Shown here in pieces: positions 2,487-9,285 of a stretch of DNA of 20,360 nt. The stretch is taken from positions 1-20,360 of IMG/VR virus record IMGVR_UViG_3300035670_001473, one strand, 5' to 3'. A program made the translations under genes and the position numbers. The first letter of the stretch is position 1. Every line of letters starts with the position of its first letter. The DNA comes from a virus. The notes under the pieces were generated by a model. That model did not search any database. It was not told the origin of the DNA and saw only the letters and a program-made list of their open reading frames with translations.

Positions 2487-2502
2487 ATAATATTTGAGTT
2501 TT

Positions 2503-2587
2503 GCTCCTTGATCCCGACATCGGTCTTCTAAACCGATCCTTAGAGTTGGGTGGACGGCAACTGGTTCAAATCCAGCAGGGAGCCCCA
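2503..2587 (+). tRNA. tRNA-Arg(TCT)-like gene lacking a D-arm
   Basis: The acceptor GCTCCTT (2503-2509) pairs with AGGGAGC, followed by C and an encoded CCA. The anticodon arm is perfect: TCGGT, loop CTTCTAA (anticodon TCT at 2527-2529), ACCGA. The T-arm is CTGG-TTCAAAT-CCAG. Between acceptor and anticodon stem there are only 10 bases, so no D-stem can form. The variable region is long (about 24 nt) and holds GTTG/CAAC around a 9-base loop. It may be a defective tRNA or an unusual class-II-like one. Confidence 0.65.
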
Positions 2588-2589
2588 TT

Positions 2590-2786: not shown

Positions 2787-2911
2787 GCGTCTGTAACTCA
2801 GTTGGTAGAGTATCTGGCTTATTGCGTGTGGAGATGAACGTGACATCTTCCACACCACAAAAAGATTCAGTTAACCAGATAGCCCCAGTTCGAACCTGGG
2901 CAGGCGCACCA
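2787..2911 (+). tRNA. Interrupted tRNA with a 50-nt insert in the anticodon loop
   Basis: The acceptor GCGTCTG pairs with CAGGCGC, followed by A and CCA. D-arm ACTC/GAGT, T-arm CCCAG-TTCGAAC-CTGGG and anticodon stem TCTGG (2813-2817)/CCAGA (2875-2879) are all intact. The anticodon loop is 57 nt instead of 7. The insert contains a strong hairpin: 2826-2836 with 2844-2855 (11 bp, one bulge) around AACGTGA. Removing 50 nt could leave CT-GTT-AA, which would be tRNA-Asn(GTT), but the junction and therefore the anticodon are uncertain. The arms are too well kept for random decay. Confidence 0.7.
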
Positions 2912-2926
2912 AATATTCAAAAATAG

Positions 2927-2969
2927 TCGAACTCCTTATGAATAAATATGTTCGAGAATAGGAGTTCGA
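2927..2969 (+). promoter_or_regulatory. Hairpin masking the HNH ribosome-binding site, late-promoter-like loop
   Basis: TCGAACTCCT (2927-2936) is perfectly complementary to AGGAGTTCGA (2960-2969), and the second arm contains the AGGAG Shine-Dalgarno of the HNH gene at 2972. The loop holds AATAAATA (2941-2948), one base from the T4 late promoter TATAAATA. A transcript started just downstream would lack the first arm and expose the ribosome-binding site. This arrangement is known for T4 homing endonucleases such as I-TevI; its use here is inferred. Confidence 0.5.
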
Positions 2970-2971
2970 TT

Positions 2972-3532
2972 ATGATTACAAATTGTAAGAAATGTGGCGA
3001 AGAATTTGATAATTACAGCAAATGGGGTGAAAAACAGTTTTGCTCACGTAAATGTGCTAACAGTAGAACATTTAGTGATGAAGCAAAGCTCAAAAAAAGC
3101 GTAGCCCTTAAAGGTAGAGTAGTTGGTGAAAAATGTGGCTTAACTGATGAAAAGTATCAAGCTAAAATTGAAAAGTATAAAAAAACTAGAAAAGAAAGAC
3201 AGAACTCTATTCCGTTTGATAAACTTGGAGTACCAGGAAAACGAAATCGAGTGTTTGAAGAGCAAAACTATGCTTGCAATAACTGTGGGCTATCTAATTG
3301 GATGAATCAGCCGATAACGTTAGAGCTTGAACACAAAGACGGAGATAGAGAAAACAATACTCGTGAAAATTTAGAAGGTTTGTGCCCTAACTGTCATAGC
3401 TTAACGGAAACATGGCGTGGACGAAAAATTAGAAAAAATAAGATAGATAATAACACATTGTTGAAGTGTTTAATTGAATCAAAAAATATCAAACAGGCTC
3501 TGGCAATTCACAATATAACACTATATGGATAA
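2972..3532 (+). CDS. HNH homing endonuclease with N-terminal zinc finger
   Basis: Free-standing phage HNH homing endonuclease of 186 aa, predicted to nick or cut DNA at a tRNA-cluster target and spread its own gene. Residues 5-28 carry CKKC...FCSRKC, a zinc ribbon. A basic linker follows, with the HNH core at 102-142: CNNC, LELEHKDGD, N in TRENLEGL, CPNCHS. ATG 2972 is chosen over 2948 because AGGAG precedes it. Base composition is more A-rich than the neighbours, as for an invading element. Shortly before its stop there is a possible slippery A-AAA-AAT (3481-3487), and the missing C-terminal part continues in the -1 frame (3487-3807). Confidence 0.85.
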   Translation: MITNCKKCGEEFDNYSKWGEKQFCSRKCANSRTFSDEAKLKKSVALKGRVVGEKCGLTDEKYQAKIEKYKKTRKERQNSIPFDKLGVPGKRNRVFEEQNYACNNCGLSNWMNQPITLELEHKDGDRENNTRENLEGLCPNCHSLTETWRGRKIRKNKIDNNTLLKCLIESKNIKQALAIHNITLYG

Positions 3533-3895: not shown

Positions 3896-3986
3896 GCTCA
3901 GATAGTGTAATGCAGCACGACGGGTCTTATAAACCCGAACTCCAGATCAGAGGTTAGTGTGGGTTAAAGTCCCACTCTGAGCACCA
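3896..3986 (+). tRNA. tRNA with anticodon TAT and a long variable arm
   Basis: The acceptor GCTCAGA pairs with TCTGAGC, followed by A and CCA. The anticodon arm is perfect: CGGGT-CTTATAA-ACCCG, with anticodon TAT (3928-3930), which would read AUA (Ile). The T-arm is GTGGG-TTAAAGT-CCCAC. The variable region is 21 nt and can form a short stem (AACTC/GAGGTT with one bulge), a class II feature not expected for isoleucine. The identity is by anticodon only. Confidence 0.8.
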
Positions 3987-8519: not shown

Positions 8520-8632
8520 ATATAAAATGGTGTTTCTTAGAAAGAACAAATAAGATCTATCCTATTTTTGATGTGACACAAACATCGACGAATACGGTAG
8601 TGATCTGCTTGGAAATGTACATCTATGTTTAA
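8516..8632 (+). CDS. Short ORF, 38 aa, N-terminus like the preceding gene
   Basis: ATG in an ATGA overlap with the upstream stop; it ends TAA at 8630-8632, overlapping the start of the next gene at 8625. The first 15 bases repeat those of the 8163 gene (MNIKW), and TNKIYPIFDVTQ echoes TKTIYSNTVEVE, so it may be a shrunken duplicate. The overlapping start and stop on both sides argue that it is translated. Confidence 0.5.
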   Translation: MNIKWCFLERTNKIYPIFDVTQTSTNTVVICLEMYIYV

Positions 8633-8849
8633 GAAAAATGATCGTGTTTTAGTTCGTTCATTGCATGATGGTATGACCCATGAAGGAACTATTCGATGTA
8701 TCTCTGTTAATATGGCTCCTGTGACTGATGCAATCTATATTGTGGAATTGGACCAAAACAATCCTTGGAATTCTGAGTTTGAATTCGTCGCAGTTTCACT
8801 ACAAGCCACACATTATCATACAACCTCGTCTTGTCTAACACTAATTTAG
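8625..8849 (+). CDS. Tandem duplicate A, SH3-like small protein, 74 aa
   Basis: Nearly identical in plan to the next gene: KKNDRVLVRSLHDGMTHEGTI, then RCISVNMAPV, IYIVELDQNNPW and a C-terminal SCLTLI. Alternating short strands and the KNDRVLV...G.I pattern suggest a small SH3/KOW-like beta barrel; function unknown. Compared with its copy it has about 10 extra residues (QATHYHTTSS) before the last strand. The ATG overlaps the end of the 38-aa ORF. Confidence 0.75.
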   Translation: MFKKNDRVLVRSLHDGMTHEGTIRCISVNMAPVTDAIYIVELDQNNPWNSEFEFVAVSLQATHYHTTSSCLTLI

Positions 8850-8861
8850 GATAGAAATCAT

Positions 8862-9062
8862 ATGTTTAATAAAAATGATCGTGTGCTAATTCATTCTTTC
8901 GGTGATGGTAAATCTCATAAGGGAACTATCCGGGGAATTTCTGTCAATATGGCTCCTGTGGTTGTGATTTATATTGTAGAATTAGATCCAAACAATCCCT
9001 GGGAATCTGAGTTTGATTTTATCACAGTTCCTACTGCTTGTTTGACACTGATCGGAGAATGA
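8862..9062 (+). CDS. Tandem duplicate B, SH3-like small protein, 66 aa
   Basis: Duplicate of the gene at 8625: KNDRVLIHSFGDGKSHKGTI, then RGISVNMAPV, IYIVELDPNNPW and ACLTLIGE. More than half the residues match by eye, with identical blocks (ISVNMAPV, YIVELD). AGGATAGAA precedes the ATG. It ends 10 bases before a tRNA. Confidence 0.75.
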   Translation: MFNKNDRVLIHSFGDGKSHKGTIRGISVNMAPVVVIYIVELDPNNPWESEFDFITVPTACLTLIGE

Positions 9063-9158: not shown

Positions 9159-9285
9159 AGCGAGGTAGCTCAATTGGACAGAGCGCCGTCCACGAAGGCG
9201 GGGCGTCGAAGGGTCGAAATCAGAACCATGGATAACTGACTAGATGAATAGACTGGTGTTGGTTCAAATCCAACCCTCGCAACCA
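9159..9285 (+). tRNA. tRNA-like gene with about 50 extra nucleotides
   Basis: GCGAGG (9160-9165) pairs with CCTCGC (9275-9280), followed by AA and CCA; the outermost 1-72 position is A-A. D-arm GCTC/GAGC and T-arm GTTGG-TTCAAAT-CCAAC (9258-9274) are perfect. The anticodon-arm position offers CCGTC/GGCGG (9186-9201) with a 6-base loop CACGAA, lacking U33. Between it and the T-stem lie 56 nt instead of about 5. Either the variable region carries an insert or an intron interrupts the anticodon region; the amino acid cannot be assigned (ACG, Arg, is one reading). Confidence 0.6.

Follow-up and report, generated by a model that had tools for sequence, protein, structure and literature searches.

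A 50-nt hairpin insert in the anticodon of a tRNA-Lys(UUU) gene of a T4-like phage: a probable small intron, with proposed excision by nucleases and exon joining by an RNA ligase

The tRNA gene described here is interrupted within its anticodon by a 50-nt insert containing a hairpin. We consider it rather probable that this is a working phage tRNA-Lys(UUU) gene with an intron between positions 34 and 35; nucleases would excise this intron and an RNA ligase would join the exons. The window, i.e. the whole stretch of DNA analysed, is an IMG/VR record of 20,360 nt representing only part of a phage genome. It contains, among others, ORFs for clamp, clamp loader, RegA, RNase H and tail tube proteins, which assigns it to a T4-like phage.

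The preliminary description of a tRNA with all arms perfect, a 57-nt anticodon loop and an 11-bp hairpin therein was confirmed by direct reading, by Rfam, by folding and by ARAGORN (Table 1). The gene matches the Rfam tRNA model with 54.4 bits (E 7e-10), the anticodon-loop stretch thereby being skipped as an insert, and the predicted fold of the full tRNA including the insert is better than that of every one of 200 dinucleotide shuffles (z -3.2). With the intron option switched off ARAGORN missed the gene; with the option switched on it reported Lys(ttt) with a 50-nt intron.

The position of the insert was derived from homologues. With the anticodon masked, the best matches among GenBank phages were the tRNA-Lys genes of S-PM2, S-CREM1 and S-SKS1 (E 2e-6), marine T4-like cyanophages in which these genes are annotated as ordinary, uninterrupted tRNA-Lys(UUU) of 73-74 nt. 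The exons of the window gene agree with them to 81-82% over 56-59 nt. In a MAFFT alignment with the three cyanophage genes all extra sequence falls between CTT and TTAA, and this gap sets the insert at 2821-2870, the junction at 34/35 and the mature loop as CUUUUAA. Both A73 and the homology to the cyanophage genes point to tRNA-Lys(UUU) as the identity of the gene. The earlier expectation that precise removal would restore a functional tRNA is supported, but the anticodon GTT considered at that time has to be replaced by UUU. Asn with the anticodon GTT presupposes a different junction and is at odds with A73, and the best homologues are tRNA-Lys. Ile(UAU), resulting from a junction at 35/36, was rejected in view of A73, the tRNA-Lys homologues and a tRNA-Ile(UAU) already present at position 3896 of the window. 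The variable region of the latter is 18 nt longer, which is unusual for tRNA-Ile.

The proposed search for uninterrupted relatives led to the cyanophage tRNA-Lys genes; a nearer empty site was not found. Exact and near patterns of the insert gave no match in IMG/VR, where no relative of the insert was found, and a search with the neighbouring AAA-ATPase yielded a single relative (L001), which stops short of the tRNA-Lys gene.

The insert consists of ATTGC, the hairpin and CACAAAAAGATTCAG. The hairpin carries a loop of 7 nt (AACGTGA) and scores higher than shuffled sequences for a shape like that of an acceptor/T helix (stacked 7 + 4 bp, 7-nt loop; p=0.004). It has neither the T-loop consensus nor CCA, and its helix begins 5 nt inside the 34/35 junction. 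We rejected the hairpin as a repeated mobile element, as it is present in a single copy in the window. With 50 nt the insert is indeed too small for a group I intron, as had been noted before, and it matches no ribozyme family.

Table 1. Positions of the features in the window and in the other records compared
Feature	Record	Position	Strand	Remarks
5' exon, tRNA-Lys(UUU) nt 1-34	window	2787..2820	+	acceptor 5' strand, D arm, anticodon-stem 5' strand, C32 U33 U34; Rfam, cyanophage tRNA-Lys alignment
Insert (inferred intron) between U34 and U35	window	2821..2870	+	50 nt; MAFFT gap, ARAGORN intron option
Insert hairpin	window	2826..2855	+	arms 2826-2836/2844-2855; 7 bp + 4 bp, 1-nt bulge
3' exon	window	2871..2911	+	U35 U36 A37 A38, anticodon-stem 3' strand, T arm, acceptor 3' strand, A73, CCA
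Acceptor stem	window	2787-2793/2901-2907	+	7/7 bp, one G-U
D stem	window	2796-2799/2808-2811	+	4/4 paired
Anticodon stem	window	2813-2817/2875-2879	+	5/5 paired
Anticodon loop	window	2818-2874	+	57 nt, contains 11-bp hairpin
T stem	window	2884-2888/2896-2900	+	5/5 paired; loop TTCGAAC
A73	window	2908	+	
Encoded CCA	window	2909-2911	+	
HNH endonuclease ORF, candidate homing endonuclease	window	2948..3532 (start possibly 2972)	+	PHROG HNH families, E 4e-22
Inverted repeat across HNH start	window	2912-2984		
tRNA-Arg(UCU)-like	window	2502-2588	+	tRNA-Sec model 26 bits
tRNA-Ile(UAU)	window	3896-3986	+	
Tandem duplication of a small gene	window	8624-9029		two blocks, 79% and 81% identical
Second tRNA with extra sequence	window	9159..9285	+	about 45-60 nt extra in anticodon domain; Rfam tRNA 37.7 bits
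Nested tRNA	L051	2025-2177		complete tRNA-Phe(GAA) + CCA exactly between U34 and C35 of tRNA-Arg(UCU)
Nested tRNA	L004	4972-5124		tRNA-Phe(GAA) in tRNA-Arg(UCU) as in L051, CCA imperfect
Nested tRNA	L007	6109-6259		tRNA-Asn + CCA inside tRNA-Lys at 36/37
Nested tRNA	L026	4191-4349		complete or nearly complete tRNA in anticodon loop of another tRNA
Mini-tRNAs with CCA	L002, L071, L005, L030			7-bp acceptor stacked on T arm + NCCA, exactly 34/35
Mini-tRNAs without CCA	L025, L080, L085, L092, L181			at 35/36 in tRNA-Asn(GUU)
Plain hairpins	window (Lys), L067 (Lys), L043 (Asn)			start A-N3-C, end AG before UUAA
Polynucleotide-kinase-like ORF and phosphoesterase ORF	L067	1526-2510		
Second-class inserts (28/29)	L194	1010-1131		
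Second-class inserts (28/29)	L195-L199			
Second-class inserts (28/29)	L200	1313-1434		
Second-class inserts (28/29)	L094, L013, L045, L066			
Re-formed anticodon stem	BF			CG+ACA/TGTCG
Re-formed anticodon stem	CBB			CG+AGC/GCTCG
Re-formed anticodon stem	SNUABM_50			GG+GCA/TGCCC
Re-formed anticodon stem	L094, L013			CG+GTC/GACCG
Re-formed anticodon stem	L045			GG+CCA/TGGCC

A second tRNA-like gene of the window also contains extra sequence in its anticodon domain. For this gene ARAGORN with introns allowed predicted a 45-nt intron and Val GAC; the counterpart in L001 would read GAT. The 86 nt at its 3' end are identical to L001 at 84 positions, compared to 89% in the flanking 618 nt. The tRNA-Arg(UCU)-like sequence upstream of the tRNA-Lys gene is perfectly paired in its acceptor and anticodon stems; it lacks a D arm, and its variable region is long. 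Furthermore, a small gene is duplicated in tandem in the window.

Anticodon-loop inserts were found in many other phage tRNAs. We scanned 2.9 million viral contigs of IMG/VR with a tRNA pattern which fixes the D arm and the T loop and leaves the insert content free, and the raw matches were put through a strict cloverleaf check for loops of 20-110 nt. In 0.83 Mb of loci this check yielded 33 genes, 31 of them distinct and a few doubtful (AT-rich or overlapping) and not relied on, and none in the reversed sequences. Many raw matches represented ordinary tRNAs followed by another sequence resembling a T arm, or tandem tRNAs that were incomplete; these were sorted by hand and reused as controls. 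The scan provided more than 20 phage tRNAs with inserts of 31-85 nt, ranging from complete tRNAs and mini-tRNAs with or without CCA to plain hairpins (Table 1). The nested mini-tRNA of L002 was scored as a tRNA by Rfam itself (48-102, 34.6 bits), and an acceptor + T-helix shape was detected at p<0.05 in 11 of 24 inserts. The inserts share little sequence. Removal of those located at 34/35 or 35/36 would give exact known anticodon loops. In the Asn insert family the helices covary: both partners have changed in 12 of 16 pairs, and the covariation score is 0.87 versus 0.25 after shuffling (0/500).

A pattern of A-N3-C, a hairpin and AG directly before TTAA retrieved only L043 and L067, besides chance matches in protein-coding sequence. 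The closest analogue of the window gene is L067, with a simple hairpin at 34/35 of a tRNA-Lys. The best explanation for the window insert is that of a reduced, hairpin-only form within this heterogeneous set of small inserts in phage tRNAs.

The tRNA pattern of the IMG/VR scan, here with CCA, was matched by at least 80 stretches in bacterial and archaeal genomes. The 25 cloverleaf matches among the stretches listed were archaeal introns (37/38), runs of N, partial tandem duplications and one or two ambiguous cases; the archaeal introns recovered serve as positive control for the insert search. In this sample, anticodon-loop inserts are not a general bacterial feature among the matches listed.

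For the cultured Agrobacterium phage Atu_ph07, 33 tRNAs have been published, covering every amino acid but Asn and Thr (PMC6102473). We found two interrupted tRNA genes in this phage, Asn(GUU) (L080) and Thr(UGU) (L068). The former lies within about 323.9-324.0 kb and the latter at about 335.1-335.2 kb of its record, both on the minus strand, and there is no annotation of either gene. As precisely these two are absent from the published list, we take the interrupted tRNAs to be working genes. tRNA finders without an intron option miss insert-bearing genes or call them pseudogenes, so that phage tRNA sets are under-counted, as is the case for Asn and Thr in Atu_ph07. The preliminary suggestion of an isolated recent disruption is not supported: many phages contain comparable inserts in tRNAs whose cloverleaf is intact, covariation is seen in one insert family, and the interrupted genes of Atu_ph07 coincide with the gap in its tRNA set.

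Genes for RNA ligases are enriched in phages carrying such inserts. In records of at least about 75 kb we compared 15 insert carriers with 13 controls, a control being a record whose pattern match was an ordinary tRNA arrangement, with its status judged at that match only; ambiguous records were set aside. The T4 RNA ligase 1 family PF09511 was present in 10/15 carriers compared to 1/13 controls (p=0.002), and any ATP-dependent RNA ligase above the cut-off in 13/15 and 4/13, respectively (p=0.006). Genome size is a partial confounder: in records of 140 kb and above the values are 8/11 and 1/8 for PF09511 (p=0.02) and 9/11 and 4/8, not significant, for any ligase. RtcB was detected only in three non-class-1 records. 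A search for Rnl in the records of the plain-hairpin subclass and in L001, mostly tiny fragments, gave none, and no RNA ligase was recognised among the ORFs searched in the window, itself a genome fragment. A polynucleotide-kinase-like ORF and a phosphoesterase ORF are located directly downstream of the insert-bearing tRNA-Lys of L067 (Table 1).

With moderate confidence we infer the removal of the insert and the joining by a ligase, which was not seen in the 20-kb fragment; the cutting enzymes are a proposal. Host tRNA-maturation nucleases may excise the inserts. In tRNA-like inserts RNase P would cut at the 5' side and RNase Z/E together with exonucleases at the 3' side; plain hairpins would be cut by a double-strand-specific or another endonuclease. 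The tRNA body would keep the halves together and a phage T4-type RNA ligase would join them, where needed after healing of the ends by polynucleotide kinase/phosphatase. Cleavage by RNase P should leave a 3'-OH on the 5' exon and the 3' nuclease a 5'-phosphate on the 3' exon. T4-type ligases seal 3'-OH/5'-phosphate ends in anticodon loops. Bacterial RNase P cleaves minihelices of acceptor and T stem and needs little more (PMC11143913, PMC11221534). The scheme of RNase P and a 3' nuclease fits the CCA-type inserts to the nucleotide. In the window RNase P alone would give a wrong exon end owing to the start of the helix inside the junction, and an additional nuclease or trimming would be needed. 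The RNase P step is therefore claimed for mini-tRNA inserts only.

In a wider and more tentative hypothesis, possible but held with less than even confidence, these phages would perform a protein-dependent tRNA splicing in bacteria, in which introns derived from nested tRNAs are cut by end-maturation enzymes of the host and ligated by the phage, the hairpins being reduced descendants. To our knowledge, enzyme-made tRNA introns have not been described in bacteria, where only self-splicing ones are established. If the inserts are removed, phages would possess a second splicing pathway that depends on proteins, and the many RNA ligases, kinases and phosphatases of phages would gain a housekeeping substrate in addition to repairing toxin damage. 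The nested series of whole tRNA, mini-tRNA and hairpin suggests how a tRNA could become an intron.

The HNH endonuclease ORF of the window starts 36-60 nt downstream of the tRNA-Lys gene. Its nearest database relative, in Erwinia phage pEa_SNUABM_50, is located directly downstream of an insert-bearing tRNA-Lys(ttt), too, and in Atu_ph07 an HNH gene of the same family is found at a distance of 83 nt from the tRNA-Thr with the insert. Furthermore, several other carriers have homing endonuclease genes (HNH or GIY-YIG) no more than about 1 kb away. Recorded around insert-bearing tRNAs, this proximity is a lead only with respect to mobility. The ribosome-binding site of the HNH gene could be masked by the inverted repeat that spans the gene start; a late-promoter-like sequence, AATAAATA, is present near this repeat, recalling T4 homing endonuclease genes.

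The tRNA-Lys of pEa_SNUABM_50 belongs to a second class, found in Erwinia, Serratia and Pectobacterium phages, in which the insert splits the anticodon stem between nt 28 and 29 and consists of a hairpin followed by CAGCAA. In GenBank these genes are annotated as 122-125-nt tRNA-Lys, tRNA-Phe or pseudogene. The exons re-form the split anticodon stem in each case compared (Table 1). This class is related in spirit, but it is not the class of the window insert. In the phages pEa_SNUABM_49/50 the HNH gene is accompanied by an insert-bearing tRNA-Lys that is divergent, whereas pEa_SNUABM_47/12/44 and Serratia phage BF have a different insert-bearing tRNA-Lys and no HNH gene. By sequence comparison, this pattern looks like homing with co-conversion.

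Alternatively the gene might be a pseudogene, broken in recent times by a mobile element (hairpin or tRNA-like) that the adjacent HNH endonuclease spread through homing. The endonuclease ORF next to the window gene, the HNH or GIY-YIG genes near several other insert-bearing tRNAs and the co-occurrence of HNH and divergent tRNA-Lys in SNUABM_49/50, with HNH absent in four sequenced relatives, would be in line with this. We nevertheless regard it as unlikely, since every stem of the window gene is intact, related inserts have been kept over long divergence with covariation, and the insert-bearing tRNA-Lys genes of the Erwinia, Serratia and Pectobacterium phages are retained with or without HNH. 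Mobility and splicing are compatible and not mutually exclusive. It also seems improbable to us that the insert is retained and the product is a 125-nt tRNA-like RNA whose giant anticodon loop would lure or trap anticodon nucleases, or which would serve as a stable non-coding RNA. In favour of this, the hairpin is stable, the fold of the complete RNA is good, and phage tRNAs are known to counter tRNA-cutting defences, e.g. PARIS and retrons (PMC12409363, PMC11555353). The tRNA body, however, keeps a full decoding anticodon stem, U33, A37, A73 and CCA; exact known anticodon loops would be restored on removal of inserts at 34/35 or 35/36, and the interrupted genes of Atu_ph07 are those absent from its published tRNA set.

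An unrecognised tiny self-splicing or self-cleaving ribozyme appears very improbable. The group I introns of cyanobacterial tRNA-Leu also use position 34/35, and the second insert class shows a conserved hairpin with CAGCAA, but neither the window nor any of 15 insert-bearing loci gave a match to an Rfam ribozyme or group I intron, the inserts have little sequence in common, and 50 nt with a single hairpin leave no space for a known splicing core. An intron of the archaeal/eukaryal type, cut by a splicing endonuclease at a bulge-helix-bulge, is hardly to be expected: genuine archaeal introns recovered by the same search demonstrate that inserts this small exist there, but they are located at 37/38 instead of 34/35, and the predicted fold of the window RNA lacks the arrangement of 3-nt bulge, 4-bp helix and 3-nt bulge. 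An assembly artefact would be conceivable for a single metagenomic contig of which no second copy is available. We consider its probability negligible, as the finished genomes of isolates (Atu_ph07; Erwinia, Serratia and Pectobacterium phages) and numerous independent contigs contain comparable inserts, and a chimera would not leave a perfect cloverleaf. Removal as an intron at 34/35 remains our preferred reading.

Conserved 'enigmatic introns', one of which possibly encodes a tRNA, have been reported in the tRNAs of Lak phages by Devoto et al. 2019, no mechanism being given in the text searched (PMC6784885). The window insert, a short non-ribozyme insert in an otherwise normal phage tRNA gene, resembles these small introns; it differs in being a hairpin only, in a tRNA-Lys of a T4-like phage, with its position fixed at 34/35. 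Neither the series from full tRNA through mini-tRNA to hairpin nor the enrichment of ligases is described in the text searched (PMC6784885). In the open-access papers searched the range of inserts, the mini-tRNA structure at 34/35 and the link to ligases were not found, by which novelty is not proven. The proposal of a new kind of small tRNA intron thus has to be restricted: small phage tRNA introns have been reported once, in the Lak phages (PMC6784885), but make-up and range of the present ones are undescribed in the papers searched.

The RNase P minihelices AT1 and pATSer (PMC11143913, PMC11221534) have the architecture seen in the mini-tRNA inserts, and the window helix shows 7 + 4 bp with a 7-nt loop. 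Those minihelices are laboratory constructs with the helix at the 5' end; here the helix is located inside another tRNA and, in the window, is devoid of T-loop sequence and CCA. Group I introns in bacterial tRNAs are self-splicing ribozymes of more than 200 nt with a conserved core. Those of cyanobacterial tRNA-Leu UAA interrupt the anticodon, including position 34/35, as does the window insert, which however has 50 nt, no such core and no Rfam match. Archaeal and eukaryal tRNA introns (BHB, EndA) are short, lie in the anticodon loop, usually at 37/38, and depend on cutting and ligation by proteins. This resembles the route proposed here, although the window insert shows neither the position 37/38 nor a BHB in its predicted fold. 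In the T4 tRNA-Lys anticodon repair (PrrC / Pnkp / Rnl1) a phage ligase seals the cut anticodon loop of tRNA-Lys; there a host toxin cuts once, whereas here an encoded insert would be excised.
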